A DNA stretch of 64,000 nucleotides from Psychrilyobacter piezotolerans (GTDB lineage Bacteria > Fusobacteriota > Fusobacteriia > Fusobacteriales > Fusobacteriaceae): contig NZ_QUAJ01000007.1 in NCBI RefSeq assembly GCF_003391055.1, positions 1 through 64,000 of the forward strand, in the 5' to 3' direction. Below the pieces are notes generated by a model. It saw nothing but the letters and a program-made list of their open reading frames with translations. It did no database searches and had not been told where the DNA came from. Positions 43,921-59,870 of this stretch are shown here, in pieces. How positions within the stretch are numbered: the stretch's first letter is position 1; the number at the start of each line of letters is the position of its first letter. The translations under genes and the position numbers were made by a program.

Positions 43921-44544
43921 TTATTTTTTCCAGGTATTTGGGGATTTATTCCATTGGCTGGCTTCTTCTGCATCTTCAGGTGATAGATAATTTTCTTCAA
44001 CTGCTAATTCTATCAAATCAGGAAATCCAGAGAGTGTTTCCCATTTACAGTTAGCTTCTTCAAATCTATCATATGCCTTTTTAAATTCATATGAGAATAT
44101 TGCCATAACTTCTACATCTTTAGCTCCTTCTCTCCTTGCAGCCTCAAGTGCTGATATACAGCTTCCGCCAGTGGAGATAAGATCTTCAATTACGATTATT
44201 TTTTTCCCCTCTACATCTGCTCCCTCTATCTGTTTCCCTGCTCCATGTGCTTTTGGTTTAGATCTGATATAAGCCATTGGTTTATTCATCTTTTCCGCGA
44301 TAAATGCTGCCCATGGAATTCCCGCTGTTGCAGTTCCTGCTAAGATATCAAAATCTTTATCTTTTAATGCTTCTACAAAAGCATTTACTATATCTGTTCT
44401 TTCCTTTGGAAAACCAATAACTTTTCTATTGTCACAATATATCGGAGATTTTATCCCTGATACAAAGGTAAATGGTTGTGCTACATTTAATCTTACTGCT
44501 TCTACTTTCAATAGTGCTCTAGCTACTCTTTTGGCGTTATTCAT
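43921..44544 (-). CDS. pyrE: Orotate phosphoribosyltransferase PyrE
   Basis: Joins orotate to PRPP. It is 207 aa from ATG 44544, which overlaps the pyrC stop; an in-frame start at 44571 lies deep inside pyrC. S-G-I-K-S-P-I-Y-C-D-N-R near residue 40, A-Y-I-R-S-K-P-K-A-H-G and the PRPP motif I-V-I-E-D-L-I-S-T-G-G-S are intact. It is the last gene of pyrKDFCE. Confidence 0.95.
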   Translation of the reverse strand: MNNAKRVARALLKVEAVRLNVAQPFTFVSGIKSPIYCDNRKVIGFPKERTDIVNAFVEALKDKDFDILAGTATAGIPWAAFIAEKMNKPMAYIRSKPKAHGAGKQIEGADVEGKKIIVIEDLISTGGSCISALEAARREGAKDVEVMAIFSYEFKKAYDRFEEANCKWETLSGFPDLIELAVEENYLSPEDAEEASQWNKSPNTWKK

Positions 44545-45790
44545 ATTCAATCTCACTCCCTGTATTCTCAATTATTTGGTTTTTATTATATACTATTTTT
44601 CCATTAACTATCGTAGTCTCAATCTTACCGTAGCCTGTATATCCATCAAATGGAGTCCATCCGCATTTTGACAGGGTAGTTTTATTCTCTAAGATAAACT
44701 TTTTATTTAGATCCACTACTACAAGATCTCCATAGTAACCCTCTTTGATCTCTCCCCTGTCTTTTATACCAAATATTTTACTGGGATTTTTAGACATGAG
44801 CTGTATCAGTTTAGATAAAGTAATTTTACCTTTAGATACAGCATCTAACATCAATGGTAATGAGTTTTCAACTCCCGGAATTCCAAATGTTACCTTTTCC
44901 AGTTTCTCTGAAAGCAGATGAGGTGCATGGTCAGTACCGATGGTATCGATAGTACCGTCATTTACAGCTTCCCATAGAGCTTCTACATCATGGGTTGTTT
45001 TTAATTCCGGTTTCATTCGCAGTAACATTTCGTTTTTTCCCTTTATATCATTTTCGTTAAGAAAAAGATGGTGGGGGGTTACTTCGGTATAGATTTTTTT
45101 TTCCGCTTTCAACCTGCTTTTTCTGATAATATCCAACTCTTTTTTATTGGAAATATGACACAGGTAAAGTTTTTTTCCATATTTTTCATTATAGGTGATA
45201 GCTTTTTCTACCATCTCACCTTCAGCGTGGACTGAAACCATCTTTGATTTTAGAAATATATTTTTTAAAACCTCATCTTTTTCTACCAACATCTTTCCTG
45301 TGGATATATTCATAAATACCTTGGTAGAAGCTATCCCTTCACCGGGAATAATATCACTGTTGTCTGTACTTGTACCGCCAAAATGAAATCCATAGTTTAC
45401 CAGTGATTTAACGGAAGCCAGGTCTTTTTTTTCTTGGAGTGCACGGGGATTTGTAGTGGTGGGTACTGTATTCGGCATATCTATAAAAGTAGTAATCCCG
45501 CCTTTGGCACACGCTCTAGATCCTGTATACAGGTCTTCTTTATGAGTCAGCCCTGGATCTCTCATATGCACATGGGCATCTATGATTCCCGGGATGAGAT
45601 ATTTCTCTCCTTTTAAATCTATAATTTCTAATTTTTTTATAATTTCATCTGAGGATAAAAATGTCCCTTTAATTATATCCAAAGTATCGATATCAGAAGT
45701 TATTTCAGCTATCTTTCCATCTTTTATATAGATATCTTTTATCTCGTATTCATTGTCTATAGTACTTATTCTAGCGTTTTTTATTAACAA
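44537..45790 (-). CDS. pyrC: Dihydroorotase PyrC (class I, amidohydrolase)
   Basis: Closes carbamoyl-aspartate to dihydroorotate. I place the start at the TTG at 45790, because GGGAGG lies 7 nt upstream and the product then begins L-I-K-N-A-R-I. That gives about 417 aa; the TTG at 45805 would include that RBS. Zn motif D-A-H-V-H-M-R-D-P-G, then T-G-S-R-A-C-A-K-G-G-I-T-T, and I-G-T-D-H-A-P-H support the bacterial type I enzyme. Confidence 0.94.
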   Translation of the reverse strand: MLIKNARISTIDNEYEIKDIYIKDGKIAEITSDIDTLDIIKGTFLSSDEIIKKLEIIDLKGEKYLIPGIIDAHVHMRDPGLTHKEDLYTGSRACAKGGITTFIDMPNTVPTTTNPRALQEKKDLASVKSLVNYGFHFGGTSTDNSDIIPGEGIASTKVFMNISTGKMLVEKDEVLKNIFLKSKMVSVHAEGEMVEKAITYNEKYGKKLYLCHISNKKELDIIRKSRLKAEKKIYTEVTPHHLFLNENDIKGKNEMLLRMKPELKTTHDVEALWEAVNDGTIDTIGTDHAPHLLSEKLEKVTFGIPGVENSLPLMLDAVSKGKITLSKLIQLMSKNPSKIFGIKDRGEIKEGYYGDLVVVDLNKKFILENKTTLSKCGWTPFDGYTGYGKIETTIVNGKIVYNKNQIIENTGSEIEYE

Positions 45791-45820
45791 AGTTCTGCCT
45801 CCCAATTCTCCCTTTTAATG

Positions 45821-45835
45821 CAGACTAAAATCTGA
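45821..45835 (-). repeat. CAGATTTTAGTCTG-type dispersed repeat, copy between pyrF and pyrC
   Basis: On the minus strand TCAGATTTTAGTCTG, an imperfect palindrome. The same or nearly the same sequence is at 25993-26007, 26018-26032 and 6406-6420. Confidence 0.6.
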
Positions 45836-45844
45836 CTTTTTTGA

Positions 45845-46573
45845 TTAACTGTTAATTATTTTTAACCCTGCCTCTATTTCTTCTAAAATTAATTTAGCTG
45901 CATGGACAGGATTTTCTGATTTAGTTATTGGTCTGCCTACCACCAAGAAATCAGCCCCATTTTCAACAGCTATTTTAGGAGTCATGATTCTCTTTTGGTC
46001 ATTTGAAGCTGCCCATAATGGTCTTACTCCCGGGCAGATTGTGTAGAAGTTTTCTCCACAAAGTTCCTTTATTTTCTTGGCTTCCAATGGGGAACACACT
46101 ACTCCGTGTAATCCTGATTCCTTAGTTTCTATTGCCCAGTGATTGGCTAATCCACTGATGTTTAAATCACTTTTAAAGTGGGCTGCCGCCTCTTCCTCTG
46201 TGAATGATGTCAATACAGTCACTGCTATTGCTATTGAATCGGAGCTATTTTCTTTTAACATATCTGCAACTGATCTCATCATTGTAGGCCCCCCGCCTGC
46301 ATGGACATTAAACATAAATACCTCTTGCTTATTTGCAAACATCGATGCCATAGTTGTTGTGTTTGGAATATCATGAAATTTCAGATCTAAAAATACTTTT
46401 TTATCTATACTATGCAGGTAATCTACCGCTTCTCCACGAGTGTTTAAAAATAATTCTAATCCTACCTTATATGTAGATACGGCATCTCCAATTTCATTTA
46501 CTATATCTTTTACCTCATCTAATGTTTTATAATCTAATGCTACTATCAACCTGTCTTTAGCTTTTAATTTCAT
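45845..46573 (-). CDS. pyrF: Orotidine 5'-phosphate decarboxylase PyrF
   Basis: Last step to UMP. It is 242 aa. I-V-A-L-D-Y at residues 9-14 and the catalytic F-L-D-L-K-F-H-D-I-P-N-T block near 60 are present. P-G-V-R-P and V-V-G-R-P-I-T near the C-terminus bind phosphate. It overlaps pyrD by 17 nt. Confidence 0.96.
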   Translation of the reverse strand: MKLKAKDRLIVALDYKTLDEVKDIVNEIGDAVSTYKVGLELFLNTRGEAVDYLHSIDKKVFLDLKFHDIPNTTTMASMFANKQEVFMFNVHAGGGPTMMRSVADMLKENSSDSIAIAVTVLTSFTEEEAAAHFKSDLNISGLANHWAIETKESGLHGVVCSPLEAKKIKELCGENFYTICPGVRPLWAASNDQKRIMTPKIAVENGADFLVVGRPITKSENPVHAAKLILEEIEAGLKIINS

Positions 46574-47525
46574 AATTCCCTCCTAATCTATTCCTGTAAG
46601 CTGCTCCTCCATCGGGATGAGCTGCTCCTACAATCTCACTGATATTATCTATATTATTTTCTTTACAGTATTTTTCCAGTCCTTTTTTTATCTCTATTGG
46701 CAATGTCGGGTTAGCAAACATTCCTGTCCCTAAAGATATAGCACTGGCTCCTACCATAATAAATTCTATTGCATCCTCTGTAGAAGATATTCCTCCCATT
46801 CCAAGGATCGGGATTGAAACTGCCTGGGACACCTGGTATATCATTCTCAGTGCAACTGGTTTTACAGCAGGGCCGGATAATCCGCCCATTATATTTCCTA
46901 AAACCGGTTTTCTTTTTCTTATATCCACTGCCATTCCTAATAGAGTATTGATAAGGGCTACACCATCTGCTCCCTCTTCCTCTACTATTTTTGCGATCTC
47001 CACTATATTGGTAACATTTGGTGATAATTTTACAATCATAGGTTTAGTTAAAACTTTTCTTACTTCACGGGTTACTAACCTTGCCATCTCTGGATTAGCT
47101 CCAAAGGCCATCCCTCCATCCTTTACATTGGGGCAGGATATATTAAGTTCTACTATCTCTATCTCTTCTATCTGTTCAACCTCTCTGGCTATCTCTATAT
47201 ATTCCTCTAGGATCTTTCCATTTATATTTGCCACCAGGGGAATATGAAGTTCTTTTTTTATAGATGGTATTATCTTTTTAAATTCTTCAATCCCCGGATT
47301 TTCTAATCCCACTGAATTTAGCATTCCAGATGGTGTCTCGGCGATCCTGGTACCGGAATTCCCGTTTCTAGGCTCCATAGTAATTCCCTTTAATACAGCA
47401 GCGCCTAATTCATTGGGGTTAAAATAATCTTTATATTCCAATCCGTATCCAAAACACCCCGATGCTGTCATTATAGGATTATTTAACTTTTTTCCTAAAA
47501 AATTTATATTTAATCTATTGCTCAT
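46557..47525 (-). CDS. pyrD: Dihydroorotate dehydrogenase B, catalytic subunit PyrD
   Basis: FMN enzyme, 322 aa, that works with PyrK and passes electrons to NAD. A-S-G-C-F-G-Y-G near residue 23 and N-I-S-C-P-N-V-K carry the class 1B catalytic Cys. G-M-G-G-I-S-S-T-E-D-A is the phosphate loop. Its ATG touches the pyrK stop (1-nt overlap). Confidence 0.95.
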   Translation of the reverse strand: MSNRLNINFLGKKLNNPIMTASGCFGYGLEYKDYFNPNELGAAVLKGITMEPRNGNSGTRIAETPSGMLNSVGLENPGIEEFKKIIPSIKKELHIPLVANINGKILEEYIEIAREVEQIEEIEIVELNISCPNVKDGGMAFGANPEMARLVTREVRKVLTKPMIVKLSPNVTNIVEIAKIVEEEGADGVALINTLLGMAVDIRKRKPVLGNIMGGLSGPAVKPVALRMIYQVSQAVSIPILGMGGISSTEDAIEFIMVGASAISLGTGMFANPTLPIEIKKGLEKYCKENNIDNISEIVGAAHPDGGAAYRNRLGGNYEIKS

Positions 47526-48316
47526 TATTTACATCCTCCATTTGGATCTATCACATCTAAATCCACTATATCTGTACTTTCAAATACCGGCCCATCATAA
47601 CAAACTTTTTTCATACCTTTTTTTGTCAGTATAGAGCACCCTACACAGGCTTTTATCCCGCAAGCCATTCTCTCTTCTAAAGATATTTGACACCTTATAT
47701 TATTCTCCTGTGCTACTTTTGCTACTGCCTCCATCATAGGGTGGGGTCCGCAGGTATAAATTATGTCTATATTTTGATCTTTTAATATTTTCATTAGCAG
47801 ATCTACAGTATTTCCTTTTATCCCCACGCTGCCGTCATCAGTGGCTACCTCTATCTTTATATTTTCAAAATTAAATTTTTCTATGATTTTTACAGCTCCG
47901 GCATTTCTTCCTCCACCTATAAACGTCACCTTGTTGTTATCTTTCAAATTTTTAATGAGGTACTTGATGGGAGCCATTCCCATTCCCCCGCCGATTACTA
48001 CTATATTTTTCCCCTCAAGATCTGTATCGTATCCATTTCCTAATGGCCCTTGGATATTTATAGTTTCGCCTATGGGTAATTTGGTGAATTCTTCAGTCCC
48101 CTTTCCCAGAGACTCATAGTAAAATTCCAAAATATTACCGTCTACATTGTGTAAACTTATCGGCCTCCTTAAAACTCTTGAACGGTCTTGACACTGGAGC
48201 ATGAAAAATTGTCCTGGTTTAGAATGTTCAGGTATTTTATCCCCTTCTACCCTCATTAAATAGTAGTTATCTGCTATTTGTATATTTTCTATGATCTTAA
48301 CATCCTCTAAAAACAT
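47525..48316 (-). CDS. pyrK: Dihydroorotate dehydrogenase B, electron-transfer subunit PyrK
   Basis: FAD and 2Fe-2S subunit, 263 aa. R-R-P-I-S-L-H near residue 50 binds FAD. I-G-G-G-M-G-M-A-P is the NAD site, and E-E-R-M-A-C-G-I-K-A-C-V-G-C-S with a later Cys forms the iron-sulfur site. It is the first structural gene after the leader ORF and terminator at 48349-48519. Confidence 0.95.
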   Translation of the reverse strand: MFLEDVKIIENIQIADNYYLMRVEGDKIPEHSKPGQFFMLQCQDRSRVLRRPISLHNVDGNILEFYYESLGKGTEEFTKLPIGETINIQGPLGNGYDTDLEGKNIVVIGGGMGMAPIKYLIKNLKDNNKVTFIGGGRNAGAVKIIEKFNFENIKIEVATDDGSVGIKGNTVDLLMKILKDQNIDIIYTCGPHPMMEAVAKVAQENNIRCQISLEERMACGIKACVGCSILTKKGMKKVCYDGPVFESTDIVDLDVIDPNGGCK

Positions 48317-48348: not shown

Positions 48349-48389
48349 AAAAAAAAAGGAATAAAAACTAAAATATTAGTTTTTATTCC
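48349..48389 (-). terminator. Attenuator-type terminator before pyrK
   Basis: On the minus strand GGAATAAAAACTAA pairs perfectly with TTAGTTTTTATTCC (14 bp, TATT loop) and is followed by about nine T. The leader-ORF stop codon TAA is the last triplet of the 5' arm. It lies 33 nt before pyrK, so read-through must be regulated for the operon to be expressed. Confidence 0.9.
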
Positions 48390-48519
48390 CACTATTATAA
48401 ATATAAAAATTAAAAATTGAATTGACTGCTCCAAATATAACATAGGGAACATCAGTTAGAAAAATAAGAAATTTATCTATGAAATTTATAAAATTATTGT
48501 TTGTCGTTAAAAATTTCAT
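48376..48519 (-). CDS. Leader peptide of the pyrK operon, 47 aa
   Basis: Short ORF starting at ATG 48519 with GGGAGG 5 nt upstream and ending inside the terminator stem. The peptide is Phe/Asn/Ile-rich, so its mRNA is U-rich. From residue 16 it has K-F-L-I-F-L-T-D-V-P-Y-V-I-F-G-A-V-N and then N-F. The leader before carA has the same residues at almost the same spacing (K-F-L, L-x-D-V-P-Y, G-A-V, N-F). The shared Leu, Ala and Val residues use different codons in the two ORFs, so the peptide itself seems to be conserved. Its role is inferred: translation up to the stop would cover the hairpin and allow read-through, as in E. coli pyrBI attenuation. Confidence 0.8.
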   Translation of the reverse strand: MKFLTTNNNFINFIDKFLIFLTDVPYVIFGAVNSIFNFYIYNSGNKN

Positions 48520-48552
48520 CTTATCCTCCCTGTCTTTTTTTATCTTTTAAAG

Positions 48553-48581
48553 ATATTATCACACTAATAAAAGACTGTCAA
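48553..48581 (-). promoter_or_regulatory. Sigma-70-type promoter of the pyrK operon
   Basis: On the minus strand: consensus TTGACA, a 17-nt spacer and TAATAT. Transcription would start near 48546, about 27 nt before the leader ORF. Confidence 0.75.
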
Positions 48582-48587
48582 GGAGTT

Positions 48588-48839
48588 TTATTTTTTATCT
48601 CTTATTTTTTCATCCAAGGTACGCAATAATTCTTCCGTTATTGGAAACCTGTCTTCCGACCTCTTTGAAAATATAAGCAGATCTTCAAATTTAATTTCAA
48701 AGGCTCCTCCGGAAGAAGGAATAAGATTGAATGAACTTACATCATTTTTATACAACCTCACAAATGTTTCCATAAGAGTAAGTGCTCTTTTTTCATACCC
48801 GCACGATATACAAAATTCTATAGATAAAACTGGTTTCAT
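48588..48839 (-). CDS. SelW/SelT/SelH-like Rdx family protein (Cys form)
   Basis: Small thioredoxin-like protein of 83 aa. The N-terminal I-E-F-C-I-S-C-G-Y-E-K-R-A matches the Rdx fold, with C-x-x-C where selenoprotein relatives have C-x-x-U. G-G-A-F-E-I-K near residue 45 is the second family motif. Probable redox partner in the cytoplasm; exact role unknown. It is the next gene after desulfoferrodoxin, 24 nt away, which supports an oxidative-stress unit. Confidence 0.82.
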   Translation of the reverse strand: MKPVLSIEFCISCGYEKRALTLMETFVRLYKNDVSSFNLIPSSGGAFEIKFEDLLIFSKRSEDRFPITEELLRTLDEKIRDKK

Positions 48840-54036: not shown

Positions 54037-54065
54037 TTGACACATTCAATTATTTTTGATATTCT
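54037..54065 (+). promoter_or_regulatory. Sigma-70-type promoter of the car leader
   Basis: Consensus TTGACA, a 17-nt spacer and TATTCT. Transcription would start near 54072, about 24 nt before the leader ORF, as at the pyrK leader. Confidence 0.72.
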
Positions 54066-54095
54066 GATATAAGAAAATTTTAGGAGGCGTTAGAT

Positions 54096-54254
54096 TTGAA
54101 AAATAATAGATTACTAGTAATACCAATTAAATTCAATAATCTGTTTCAATTTAACAAATTTTTATTTTTGAAAGATGTTCCCTATATAACATATGGAGCT
54201 GTATCTTTGTTTTTAAATTTTAATAATAATTTTATTCTAAAGAATAATGACTAA
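54096..54254 (+). CDS. Leader peptide of the carAB operon, 52 aa
   Basis: Short ORF with a TTG start and AGGAGG 8 nt upstream. Residues 21-42 include K-F-L-F-L-K-D-V-P-Y-I-T-Y-G-A-V and N-F, matching the pyrK leader. The codons around it are U-rich. The stop TAA is the last triplet of the 5' arm of the terminator at 54241-54282. The arrangement (promoter, RBS, leader, stop inside hairpin, structural gene about 60 nt on) copies the pyrK leader. The proposed role in UTP- or peptide-sensing attenuation is inference. Confidence 0.8.
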   Translation: MKNNRLLVIPIKFNNLFQFNKFLFLKDVPYITYGAVSLFLNFNNNFILKNND

Positions 54255-54282
54255 TCTATTTTAGTTATTGTTCTTTTTTTTT
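54241..54282 (+). terminator. Attenuator-type terminator before carA
   Basis: AGAATAATGACTAA (54241-54254) pairs with TTAGTTATTGTTCT (54261-54274) over 14 positions with two G-U pairs, followed by T8. It lies within the leader transcript, 31 nt before carA. Confidence 0.88.
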
Positions 54283-54313: not shown

Positions 54314-55375
54314 ATGAAGGCAAAACTGATATTAGAAAACGGAATGGTATTTGAAGGAAAAGCTTTTGGATACATAGAGGAAGCTGTAGGAGAGTTAGTG
54401 TTTAATACATCTATGACAGGATATCAAGAAGTCCTTACTGATCCATCTTACTATGGACAAATAGTTGTAATGACTTACCCAATGATAGGAAACTACGGTC
54501 TTAACCTGGATGACTTGGAAAGTAATGGTGCAAAGGTAAGAGGATTTGTAATAAAAGAACCTGCTAAACTGCCGAATAACTTTAGATGTGAGATGACCCT
54601 GGATGGTTATCTAAAACAACATAAGATCATGGGATTTAAAGGTATCGATACAAGACATTTAACTAAGATCATAAGAGATAACGGATCTATGAAAGCTATC
54701 ATCACCGTAGATGAGCTTACACAAAAAGAAATAAAAAATACAATGAATGATTTTTCAAATATAGACGCAGTAAGTATAGTAAGTACAAAAGAGATCTATG
54801 AAGCTCCCTGTGGTGCAGAAAAAGTAAATAAAAAAATCGGAATGATTGATTTTGGAATAAAACAAAATATCATCAGATCTTTTCATAAAAGAAACTGTGA
54901 CTTGACTATATTCCCATGGAATACAACTGCTGAGGAGATCTTATCCTATGATCTGGATGGTGTCTTTTTATCTAATGGACCAGGAGATCCCGCTGATCTA
55001 ACAGGTGTAATAGATGAGATCAAAAAAATGATTGGAAAAACTCCTATAATCGGAATATGTTTAGGACACCAACTTCTGGCTTGGGCATTGGGAGGGTCGA
55101 CGAACAAGTTAAAGTTTGGTCACAGGGGAGCTAACCACCCGGTAAAAGATTTGGAAAAAAATAAGATATTTATCACATCTCAAAACCATGGGTATGTGGT
55201 AGACAAAATGCCGGAAGGTGTGGAGATCACTCAAATAAACTTAAACGACAACTCTGTAGAGGGAATGAAAGACTATAAGAATAAGATAGCATCGGTACAG
55301 TATCATCCAGAAGCAGCACCTGGACCGGAAGATTCTCAGTATGTATTTGATGATTTCATCAAAATGCTGGGATAG
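54314..55375 (+). CDS. carA: Carbamoyl-phosphate synthase small subunit CarA
   Basis: Glutaminase subunit, 353 aa. The N-terminal domain begins L-I-L-E-N-G-M-V-F-E-G. The class I amidotransferase part has the Cys in G-I-C-L-G-H-Q-L-L-A and the His/Glu pair in Q-Y-H-P-E-A-A. AGGAGG precedes the ATG. Carbamoyl phosphate made here feeds PyrB downstream. Confidence 0.96.
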   Translation: MKAKLILENGMVFEGKAFGYIEEAVGELVFNTSMTGYQEVLTDPSYYGQIVVMTYPMIGNYGLNLDDLESNGAKVRGFVIKEPAKLPNNFRCEMTLDGYLKQHKIMGFKGIDTRHLTKIIRDNGSMKAIITVDELTQKEIKNTMNDFSNIDAVSIVSTKEIYEAPCGAEKVNKKIGMIDFGIKQNIIRSFHKRNCDLTIFPWNTTAEEILSYDLDGVFLSNGPGDPADLTGVIDEIKKMIGKTPIIGICLGHQLLAWALGGSTNKLKFGHRGANHPVKDLEKNKIFITSQNHGYVVDKMPEGVEITQINLNDNSVEGMKDYKNKIASVQYHPEAAPGPEDSQYVFDDFIKMLG

Positions 55376-55493
55376 GCATTTCCCATTGACATCGTAGAGC
55401 TTCAAAGCTCCTACGTTGGTTTCTTTAACCAAGAGAAACCATAAAAAAGAAGAGTCTTCTCTTTGGTAAATTTTTTTAAAGTGAGGTAATTGA

Positions 55494-58400
55494 ATGTTAG
55501 ATAAAAATATAAAGAAAACCCTTGTAATAGGATCGGGACCAATTGTAATAGGACAGGCTGCTGAATTTGACTATTCTGGAACACAGGCTTGTGAGGCATT
55601 GAAAGAAGAGGGGATAGAAGTAGTATTAATAAACTCTAACCCCGCAACTATAATGACAGATAAAAGTGTAGCCGATAGAATATATATAGAACCCATTACA
55701 TTGGAGTTTGTAACTAAGGTAATCATAAAGGAAAAACCTGATTCAATCCTGGTAGGAATGGGTGGACAAACTGCTCTTAACATGGCAGTGGAATTGGAAG
55801 ACAGCGGAATATTAGCAGAACACAATATCAAGGTATTGGGTACAAGTATCGATTCTATAAAAAGGGGAGAGGACAGAGACCTGTTTAGAGATGCAATGAA
55901 TAAGATAGGGGAACCTACTATAGAGAGTATGATAGTTGAGAGCCTGGAAGATGGATTGGAATTCGCTGCAAAAATAGGATACCCGTTGATTGTAAGACCT
56001 GCATATACATTGGGTGGTACTGGTGGAGGAATGGCAGCTAACCCTCAGGAGTTGGAAGACATCTTATTGAAGGGATTGGTATTATCCCGTGTAGGACAGG
56101 TTTTAGTTGAAAAATCTATCCTTGGATGGAAAGAAGTAGAATATGAGGTAATGAGAGATATCAATGGGAATAGAATTACAGTATGCAACATGGAAAATAT
56201 CGACCCCGTTGGAATCCATACAGGAGACAGTATCGTAGTAGCTCCATCCCAGACATTATCTGATAAAGAATACCAAATGCTGAGAACATCTGCACTTAAC
56301 ATTATAGATGAGATCGGAATTGTAGGAGGGTGTAATGTACAGTTTGCTCTCAACCCTGATTCATTTGAATACGCAATTATAGAGATCAATCCCAGAGTAT
56401 CAAGATCATCTGCACTAGCTTCTAAAGCTACTGGTTATCCCATTGCAAGGGTAGCGGCAAAATTATCACTGGGATACACTCTGGATGAAGTAAAAAATGA
56501 GGTTACAGGAAAAACATACGCTTGTTTTGAACCGGCACTGGACTATATAGTAGTAAAGATTCCAAAGTGGCCCTTTGATAAATTCGATAAAGCTGACAGA
56601 AAGTTAGGTACAAAGATGATGGCTACAGGGGAGATCATGGCTATTGGAAACAACTTTGAAGCTGCATTTTTAAAAGGTATAAGATCATTGGAGATCGGGC
56701 AGTACAGCTTAGAGCATAAAGCCTCTAAGATAAGATCTATGGAGGAACTAAAAAAGAGGGTAGTGAGTCCAGATGACGAAAGAATATTTGACCTGGCTGA
56801 GATGCTCAGACGTGGGTATACTAAGACTATGCTGCAGAAAATTACCGGAATGGATCCGTTCTTCATGGAAAAACTCCAATGGATAGTTAGACAGGAAGAA
56901 ATTTTAAAGAAGACTAAATTATCTGATCTTACTCCTAAAAACCTTAGAAACTGGAAGAAAAAAGGATTCTCAGACAGAGCCATGGCAGAATTTATGGGAT
57001 TAAATGAAGATGATATAGTAGCTAAAAGAAAAGAATTAAATGTTATGCCTGTATACAAGATGGTAGATACCTGCGCAGGAGAATTTGAAGCTTCTTCATC
57101 TTATTACTACTCAACTTATGATCTATATGATGAAGTAGAAATATCTGACAGAAGAAAGGTTATAGTAATTGGATCCGGGCCTATCAGGATCGGACAGGGA
57201 ATTGAATTTGACTACTGTACAGTACACACAGTAAAAGCACTGCAAAGTCTAGATATAGAAACTATCATTATAAATAACAATCCTGAGACTGTCTCGACTG
57301 ATTTCTCAACTGCTGATAAATTATACTTTGAACCATTGGTATTAGAAGATGTAATGAATATCATTGAAAAAGAGAACCCAGAGGGAGTTATCCTGCAATT
57401 TGGCGGACAGACTGCTATAAAATTGGCTAATGATTTAGCAGACTTAGGAATTAATATCATTGGTACTTCTGCTGATATGATAGATGCTGCCGAGGATAGA
57501 GAAAGATTTGAGGCTATCTTAGAAAAATTAGATATAAACAGACCAAAGGGAAGGGCTGTCTGGAATACTGAAGACGGTATAACAGAAGCTGAAAAAGTAA
57601 AATATCCGGTATTGGTAAGACCTTCATATGTATTGGGCGGACAAGGTATGGAGATCTGTTACTTAGAGGAAAACTTAAAAGGTTACTTAGAAGCTTCTTT
57701 CATTAGAGATCCTAAAAACCCGGTATTGGTAGATAAATACTTAAATGGTGTGGAGATCGAAGTAGATGCGATCTGTGACGGTGAAGATGTCCTTATTCCT
57801 GGGATCATGGAACATCTTGAGAGAGCAGGAATCCATTCTGGTGACTCCATTACAGTTTACCCACAACAAAATTTGTATGAGGGGACGGAAGAAGAGATTT
57901 TAGAAATCACCAGAAAATTAGCTAAAGAATTAAATATAATCGGAATGATGAATATACAGTTTATCGCCTATGAGAATAAGTTATATATCATAGAAGTAAA
58001 TCCAAGATCATCTAGAACAGTTCCTTATATCTCCAAGGTAGCTGGTGTTCCAATGATCGAACTGGCAACAAAAGTAATGCTGGGGCAAAAATTATCCGAT
58101 CTGCCATATGGTGTGGGAATATATAAAAAACCAAATCTGGTAGCAGTAAAAGTTCCGGTATTCTCTACAGAGAAGCTTGGTGGTGTGGAAGTATCATTAG
58201 GACCTGAGATGAAATCCACAGGAGAGGTCCTTGGAATAGGAAACAATATGGACGAGGCTATCTATAAGGGTCTTGTAGGAGGATACAGAATACACGAAAT
58301 TAAAAATAAGAGAGTTTTAGCAACTATAAAGGGAAGCGATAAAGATGAATTCTTAAGTTTAGCTAAAAGACTTATAAACCAAGGGTGTACAATGATTGGA

Positions 58401-58700
58401 ACCGGCGGAACTGCTGAATATTTAAATAATAATGGTGTACCATGTGAAACTGTAAATAAAATCAATGAAGCATCTCCTAATATAATCGATAAATTAAAAA
58501 CTCAGCAAATTGATCTGCTTATCAATACTCCTACAAAAGCAAATGATGCCCAAAGGGATGGATTTAAGATAAGAAGAACAGCTATAGAATATGGTGTAGA
58601 AGTATTGACTTCACTGGATACACTGAATGCAGTATTAAATATCATGGAAAAAGATGTAAACACTAGAGACTTAGATATCTTTGATATCAGCAAGATCTAA
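55494..58700 (+). CDS. carB: Carbamoyl-phosphate synthase large subunit CarB
   Basis: 1068 aa, full length. Two homologous ATP-grasp halves start near residues 8 ([19 protein letters not shown]) and 555 ([16 protein letters not shown]). The C-terminal MGS-like allosteric domain begins near 935 ([11 protein letters not shown]). It follows carA by 118 nt, a gap that contains two small hairpins (around 55395-55417 and 55419-55441) without T tracts. Confidence 0.96.
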
Positions 58701-58760
58701 TAGACTCTGCTGTTGGATATTATTTCTGTAACAGGAATAAATAAAATTTAATAAAAAATT

Positions 58761-58789
58761 TGAAAGAGGTTGTATAATGACCTCTTTCA
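58761..58789 (+). other. Hairpin between carB and pyrB
   Basis: TGAAAGAGGT and ACCTCTTTCA form a 10-bp stem with a 9-nt loop holding TATAAT. No T tract follows, so termination would be weak. It may be an mRNA processing or regulatory hairpin. No leader ORF of the carA/pyrK type is found here. Confidence 0.55.
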
Positions 58790-58847
58790 TAATATCTAAT
58801 TTTATGTTCCTTAAGAAAAATCATTAAAGGAAAGTAAGGAGGATAAT

Positions 58848-59870
58848 TTGAAAGAAATACTATCATTAAATAATTTAACTATGAAAGACATCTTAAGCAT
58901 TTTAGATAAGGCAGAAGAATTGGAAAATAACCCTAAACCTTGTGAGTTAGAAAATAAAATTTTATCCACTGTGTTTTTTGAGCCCTCTACCAGAACTAAG
59001 TTATCTTTTATCAGTGCCATGTATAGATTAGGAGGAAAGGTAATAGAATTAGATGGAGGAGGGAATAACTCCCTAAAAAAAGGGGAAACCATCTCCGATA
59101 CCCTCACTATGATGGGCCTCTATACTGATATTATGGCAATCAGGAGTCCCCATGAGGGCACAGCCAAAAGAGCAAGTGAGATTTTGGATATACCTGTAAT
59201 AAATGCAGGGGATGGAGCTAACCAGCATCCTACCCAGACTTTACTGGATCTATATACCATACAGAAGGAAAAAGGCAGGTTAGATAATTTGGAGATTGCC
59301 TTTGTAGGAGATCTCAAATATGGAAGGACTGTTCATTCATTGGCTAAGGCATTGGATAAATTTAGTGGGAATAAGATTTATTTTATAGCTCCTCCTGAGA
59401 TGCAGATTCCATCTTATATCTTGGATTCCCTCTCTTTAGAATATGAAGTTTTAGAAGACTATGAAACTGTTATGAAAGATATGGATATCCTATATATGAC
59501 CAGGATACAGGAAGAAAGATTTGATGATGCAGAAGATTTTAAAAAATGTGCAGGTAAATATCAAATAGATAAAGAGATTTTAAAAATATCCAAACCTGAT
59601 TTAAAAATTCTTCATCCACTGCCCAGGGTAGGAGAGATCCATACAAATCTGGATTCTACTCCCAATGCGGTTTATTTTTCCCAGGCTAAAAATGGTGTTT
59701 TTGTCAGGCAGGCCATCATGAGTTTACTCATGAAAGATCATACTAAACCTGTATATGACGGAGTAGACAAAAGGTGTAAAAATCCTAAATGTATCTCACA
59801 GATAGAAGATTTAGGAGGAAAATGGATGGATCTCAAAGGTAAAAAAGTATGTTTTTACTGTGAAAAATAA
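58848..59870 (+). CDS. pyrB: Aspartate carbamoyltransferase PyrB with C-terminal PyrI-type zinc ribbon
   Basis: 340 aa, TTG start with AAGGAGG upstream. The catalytic part (residues 1-305) has F-F-E-P-S-T-R-T-K-L-S-F near 43, H-P-T-Q-T-L-L-D and H-P-L-P-R. The last 32 residues read R-C-K-N-P-K-C, then 22 residues on C-F-Y-C-E-K, the four-Cys zinc site of the regulatory subunit PyrI. The nucleotide-binding domain of PyrI is absent. So the zinc ribbon, which bridges subunits in E. coli, is fused directly to the catalytic chain. PyrB-PyrI fusions are known in Treponema. No separate pyrI is seen nearby. Confidence 0.93.
   Translation: MKEILSLNNLTMKDILSILDKAEELENNPKPCELENKILSTVFFEPSTRTKLSFISAMYRLGGKVIELDGGGNNSLKKGETISDTLTMMGLYTDIMAIRSPHEGTAKRASEILDIPVINAGDGANQHPTQTLLDLYTIQKEKGRLDNLEIAFVGDLKYGRTVHSLAKALDKFSGNKIYFIAPPEMQIPSYILDSLSLEYEVLEDYETVMKDMDILYMTRIQEERFDDAEDFKKCAGKYQIDKEILKISKPDLKILHPLPRVGEIHTNLDSTPNAVYFSQAKNGVFVRQAIMSLLMKDHTKPVYDGVDKRCKNPKCISQIEDLGGKWMDLKGKKVCFYCEK

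Follow-up and report, generated by a model that had tools for sequence, protein, structure and literature searches.

In Escherichia coli, the pyrE attenuator uses rph as its leader cistron; translation ends close to the terminator hairpin, and coupling between transcription and translation decides termination. A second type of leader is represented by the sensory arrest peptides TnaC and SpeFL, in which a conserved motif lies in a leader peptide encoded before a metabolic operon. The E. coli pyrBI operon is regulated without a repressor, through a short open reading frame (ORF), a uridine-rich stretch and an overlapping terminator (PMC3641672; PMC5021804). In the same organism, a stop codon located a few base pairs before a terminator cuts termination from ~90% to <10%, and uncoupling translation abolishes the effect (PMC4824070). 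The E. coli carAB operon is described as controlled at initiation by DNA-binding factors, together with UTP-dependent reiterative transcription (PMC6245113).

The 64,000-nt stretch of the Psychrilyobacter piezotolerans genome analyzed here, referred to as the window, contains two pyrimidine operons, each preceded by a leader that resembles these systems (Table 1). An earlier note on this DNA described the two operons as unlinked; they are instead divergent neighbors ~6 kb apart, and are also divergent neighbors in relatives that carry both on one contig (e.g. G055 and G059). The attenuator layout proposed for pyrK, with a promoter, a leader ORF, a TAA closing a perfect 14-bp arm and pyrK itself at 48316, 33 nt after the T tract, is confirmed, the TAA being the exact last triplet of the 5' arm. 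The proposed distance of 27 nt between promoter and leader ORF agrees with transcription starting near 48546; counted from the -10 box, the ATG is 33 nt away. The carA leader was said to share this geometry, and it does so in the order of its elements and in a TAA stop that ends the 5' arm of the terminator; its arm is 15 nt long, however, with two G-U wobbles and a 6-nt loop. Its start codon is TTG, which corrects an earlier reading, and the carA ATG follows at 54314.

Table 1. Features of the pyrK and carA leaders in the window
Feature	Position	Strand	Details
pyrK-pyrD-pyrF-pyrC-pyrE operon	43921..48316	-	Downstream of the pyrK leader
pyrK-operon promoter	48553..48581	-	TTGACA 48581-48576, 17-nt spacer, TAATAT 48558-48553, TG before -10; seen upstream of the leader in genus genomes too
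Shine-Dalgarno of pyrK leader ORF	48525..48530	-	GGGAGG
pyrK leader ORF	48376..48519	-	ATG 48519, 47 codons, TAA 48378-48376; peptide MKFLTTNNNFINFIDKFLIFLTDVPYVIFGAVNSIFNFYIYNSGNKN; in 8/8 genus genomes
pyrK leader core	48427..48462	-	FLTDVPYVIFGA; residues invariant; RNA GUUCC (48450-48446) can pair with GGAGC (48432-48428)
U-rich stretch ahead of pyrK hairpin	48391..48450	-	T = 0.50 in 60 nt
pyrK intrinsic terminator	48349..48389	-	Perfect 14-bp stem 48389-48376 / 48371-48358, loop TATT, nine T 48357-48349
carA-carB-pyrB operon	54314..59870	+	Downstream of the carA leader
carA-operon promoter	54037..54065	+	TTGACA 54037, 17 nt, TATTCT
Shine-Dalgarno of carA leader ORF	54082..54087	+	AGGAGG
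carA leader ORF	54096..54254	+	TTG 54096, 52 codons, TAA 54252-54254; peptide MKNNRLLVIPIKFNNLFQFNKFLFLKDVPYITYGAVSLFLNFNNNFILKNND
carA leader core	54165..54200	+	FLKDVPYITYGA; RNA GUUCC...GGAGC hairpin
carA intrinsic terminator	54240..54282	+	15-bp stem 54240-54254 / 54261-54275, two G-U pairs, loop TCTATT, T tract 54276-54282

Within the window, 22 terminator calls scored at least 20; some of these overlap one another or mark one site on both strands. Among the 22, the pyrK and carA leaders are the only ones with a Shine-Dalgarno (SD)-led ORF of 25 codons or more whose stop lies in the hairpin. Over the 60 nt that lead up to the hairpin, both have a T fraction of 0.50, the highest of the window's calls. 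Both leaders, with their frame and the stop in the hairpin, are kept in all 8 Psychrilyobacter genomes examined. The two leader peptides are paralogous, sharing a KFLxFLxDVPYxxxGAV-like sequence, so the likeness of the two leaders is partly due to common descent. Just upstream of the pyrK promoter, at 48588-48839 on the minus strand, lies a small ORF beginning MKPVLSIEFCISCGYEKRALTL with a SelW/Rdx-type CxxC appearance, which is found beside the same operon in G060 too.

Analyzed with the same code, E. coli pyrL has the same order of elements, with an SD-led ORF of 44 codons, a U run and a hairpin. The Psychrilyobacter leaders thus have in common with pyrBI/PyrL a promoter, an SD-led leader ORF, a U run, an intrinsic terminator overlapped by the predicted ORF and a pyrimidine operon downstream; the anatomy expected of a translated leader and the U-rich stretch ahead of the terminator, which mark the pyrBI type, are both present. 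There are four differences. First, PyrL translation runs through its hairpin to a stop 27 nt beyond, next to pyrB, whereas the Psychrilyobacter stops lie inside the hairpin; in our view this is a variant trait and not a defining one, because a ribosome at the stop would occlude the 5' arm all the same. Second, the Psychrilyobacter stems are long (14-15 bp) and A-U-rich, while the pyrL stem is short (8 bp) and G-C-rich. Third, the PyrL peptide is unrelated to the Psychrilyobacter leader peptides. Fourth, the device is carried by the carA and pyrK operons in Psychrilyobacter, whereas E. coli carAB is described as being under other control. The other described systems each share a part of the design. 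As in pyrE/rph, translation would end close to a terminator hairpin, although a full gene serves as the leader there and a dedicated ORF of ~50 codons does so here. The PyrR attenuators of Bacillota (RF00515) act on the same pathway through transcription termination before pyr genes, but Psychrilyobacter has a leader ORF in place of a PyrR gene and PyrR-binding RNA. Like the TnaC/SpeFL type, the Psychrilyobacter leaders have a conserved motif in a peptide encoded before a metabolic operon, but this candidate arrest motif is limited to one genus and overlaps an RNA hairpin.

The earlier note treated the design as a feature shared by the two operons of this genome and missed that the same layout is widespread in Fusobacteriota. 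Approximately 130 regions upstream of carA, pyrB, pyrK or pyrR were surveyed in the phylum by automatic terminator and ORF calls. Among the 91 regions upstream of carA, pyrB or pyrK with a strong terminator near the gene, 74 have an SD-led ORF, again of 25 codons or more, with its stop within the hairpin, compared with 0.1 expected from dinucleotide shuffles of the upstream 250 nt, a statistic computed on loci chosen for their terminator. Stop-in-hairpin leaders are spread over thirteen genera, among them Fusobacterium, Cetobacterium and, in other families, g20, g25 and g29. In several genera (g3, g5, g6, g7, g9, g12 and g14), one device precedes carA and another precedes pyrB; at g3 carA, the stop of some ORFs lies beyond the hairpin and not within it. 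The 60 nt before the hairpin contain on average 53% T across the phylum, compared with 29% in coding windows (0.29 +/- 0.065) and 35% in intergenic windows of the 64,000-nt stretch, and U-richness ahead of the hairpin is present in nearly all genera with the design, g20 excepted. At the sites examined, the design or a clear terminator is missing in g13, g15, g18, g19, g21-g24 and g27.

Two side observations came from the survey. The pyr terminator stems of different genera (e.g. L061, L069, L073, L076, L120 and L157) begin alike, with a sequence like GGAATA(A/G)T, and have U-rich 3' arms that close with TATTCC just ahead of the T tract, despite their unrelated peptides. Near the carA leader of g25 (L060 and L061) are two ORFs of ~190-200 codons with similar N-termini (like IHNPILDKIMIFFTSLGD) that appear PAP2-phosphatase-like.

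We consider it likely that each Psychrilyobacter leader is a pyrBI-type, UTP-sensitive attenuator that works through transcription-translation coupling, with its stop inside the hairpin. RNA polymerase would start at the promoter and a ribosome would follow in the leader ORF, along a template that is very U-rich just before and inside the hairpin. At low UTP, the polymerase would slow in the U-rich leader, and the ribosome would keep up and reach the stop at the inner end of the 5' arm, where it would cover that arm, prevent the terminator from folding and allow the operon to be read. At ample UTP, the polymerase would outrun the ribosome, the hairpin would form and transcription would end before pyrK or carA. 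Two copies from one ancestral leader would set both halves of the pathway, and the conserved core hairpin or peptide may tune the timing. We infer UTP as the signal, the coupling, the direction of the response and the timing role of the core. The earlier proposal that a ribosome at the stop would mask the hairpin agrees with the position of the stop within the hairpin in both leaders and with the E. coli precedent of a stop near a terminator (PMC4824070).

Several observations weigh against the coupled UTP model. A high T content is expected in any AT-rich genome and in codons for hydrophobic residues, so coding could explain part of the U-richness; in favor of the model, T is above expectation even among synonymous codons, modestly, in 9 of the 10 genera tested. 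The ORF stops in the hairpin here and runs through it in E. coli. Several genera lack the design or a clear terminator, and g4 uses PyrR. We know of no demonstration of transcription-translation coupling in Fusobacteriota. Finally, the genus-level conservation of FLxDVPYxxxG exceeds the needs of a plain pyrBI leader.

This conservation gives grounds for a different reading, in which the leaders encode arrest peptides that sense a metabolite: the core in the exit tunnel, together with a pyrimidine nucleotide, would halt translation, and where the stall occurs would decide the fate of the terminator. Residues F, L, D, V, P, Y and G of the core FLxDVPYxxxG are invariant in 16/16 sequences of the two leaders while the flanks diverge, and M, F, F, L, D, V, P, Y, G and one N do not vary among the distinct leader sequences, those of the divergent genome G058 included. 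The core Leu is encoded by three synonymous codons, and dN/dS is rather low in the Psychrilyobacter leaders (0.26-0.42 without G058) relative to the leaders of other genera (0.35-1.31). The invariant residues, the Leu codons and dN/dS speak for the arrest reading. However, the core is missing from all other genera with the same design, and it lies one codon nearer to the stop in one leader than in the other.

The bases encoding the core also bear on this reading. Those coding for DVPYxxxG[A/T] can fold locally into a hairpin, GUUCC...GGARY, which RNAalifold found independently. All five pairs are intact in all distinct sequences except one (98.7% of cells paired); U-G has become U-A in two sequences, and the stem of the G058 pyrK leader is lengthened to GUUCCC:GGGAGC. 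The core Val codon is GTT in 16/16 sequences, even though the window as a whole uses GTA most often for Val, twice as often as GTT, and the base that varies is the third base of the core Pro, which core pairing does not use. Because GTT is fixed and variation falls on this unpaired base, part of the core conservation may lie at the RNA level, perhaps as a pause hairpin that would align polymerase and ribosome; such a constraint counts against the arrest peptide. The peptide may also have a role, because no pair of the core hairpin has changed on both sides among the genus sequences and Leu is kept through its three synonymous codons. The terminator stem is maintained by changes on both sides of 2 pairs (97.6% of cells paired), from G-C to A-U at the base and from A-U to U-A further in. 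Overall, metabolite-sensing arrest is an unlikely explanation of the leaders. Slightly less likely still is a layered version, in which the FLxDVPYxxxG core of the nascent peptide senses a pyrimidine nucleotide, arrests the ribosome and so controls termination, on top of an older UTP-coupled attenuator; if true, it would be the first pyrimidine-sensing arrest peptide, as far as we know.

Other uses of the core sequence were considered and rejected. An antiterminator formed by the core UUCCC and the GGGAA of the pyrK terminator arm loses its pairing in carA (AAGAAU), and +1 frameshifting at the core CCC-U leads into a new frame without consistent continuation. A homologue search with the leader peptide found none in GTDB genome contigs or viral contigs, and the core was not found in the pyr leaders of other genera; weak tblastn matches in other genera are frames within or antisense to other genes (e.g. 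L026, antisense to a large ORF), and a match on G057:C171 is spurious, the true G057 carA leader being on C161.

A reading that we regard as improbable is that the ORFs encode small hydrophobic proteins with functions of their own, the terminators merely ending small genes with partial read-through into the pyr genes. The peptides are indeed rich in Phe, Ile and Leu and their core is conserved in the genus, but three observations count against it: the ORF immediately precedes a pyr operon and has its stop within the hairpin (74/91), the leader peptides are unrelated in sequence between genera, and no Pfam or NCBIfam family matches them. Since peptide sequence is not conserved between genera, the leaders do not appear to read an amino acid or a common peptide, which also weighs against classical trp/his-type attenuation, in which a ribosome held up at the codons of a limiting amino acid would switch the RNA between an antiterminator and the terminator. 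A leader ORF followed by a terminator is what such attenuation predicts, but no run of a single regulatory codon and no mutually exclusive hairpins accompany it, and the genes regulated make pyrimidines. Between the leader start codon and the hairpin, no excess folding was detected (mean z +0.4), giving no sign of an antiterminator; a small local hairpin does lie in this region at the Psychrilyobacter core. Amino-acid attenuation is therefore a very poor candidate.

Control of the terminators by a PyrR-like protein or a riboswitch, as for pyr operons elsewhere and possibly in the PyrR-bearing g4 of this phylum, is barely credible here: neither a PyrR gene nor a PyrR-binding RNA (RF00515) is present in the genome, no known Rfam riboswitch matches either pyr leader, and no antiterminator fold is seen. 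The earlier description of the leaders as neither PyrR-type nor riboswitch is upheld on these counts; they are not, however, an unnamed third kind, being in essence of the E. coli pyrBI type. In the phylum as a whole, the PyrR gene (NF003549 model) is absent from 95/98 genomes, this one included, and the 3/98 that have it all belong to genus g4. There (L089 and L077-L079), PyrR precedes pyrB within the same cluster, which looks like a regulator swap within the family. Strong riboswitch matches do occur elsewhere in the window, to cobalamin (RF00174, 6539-6715, plus strand) and FMN (RF00050, 31001-31113, plus strand).

In this genome, no comparable leader was observed upstream of pyrG or of the nucleobase permeases, apart from one ambiguous case. 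Upstream of 129901 on G000:C2 (L196), an ORF of ~120 codons precedes a nucleobase permease, with a TAG stop in the 5' arm of a terminator (AAAAGATAGATTTTACTATCTTTT) and a T fraction of 0.37; it could be a coupled attenuator like that of pyrE/rph or just an ordinary gene end. Upstream of pyrG (L201, G000:C29) are a hairpin with a long T run (GGCGATAAATCAAAACATCCGTTTTTTTTTTCGCC), a second T tract and, further upstream, a G run, possibly forming a nucleotide-sensing attenuator of pyrG's own. Three other nucleobase permease upstreams (L197, L198 and L199) carry purine-riboswitch-like sequence (e.g. TTTCTAC...CTGACTATAAG).

Attenuation of the pyrBI type is known; the stop inside the hairpin, the long A-U-rich stems, a carA operon carrying the device and the presence of two devices in several genera differ from E. 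coli. No report of the design in Fusobacteriota was found in the literature, which is weak evidence of novelty since the search covered open-licence papers only. A stop codon inside a terminator with a U-rich run ahead of it is a simple signature by which such attenuators can be found elsewhere, and the Psychrilyobacter core offers a clean case in which recoding can separate the peptide and RNA readings. If the coupled UTP model is right, many genera of a PyrR-poor phylum control their pyrimidine synthesis with a mechanism that is known mainly in enteric bacteria. It would also mean that ribosomes closely follow RNA polymerase in Fusobacteriota. Whether they do so outside Proteobacteria has been in doubt, and the pyr leaders would be natural reporters that give this coupling question a direct test.
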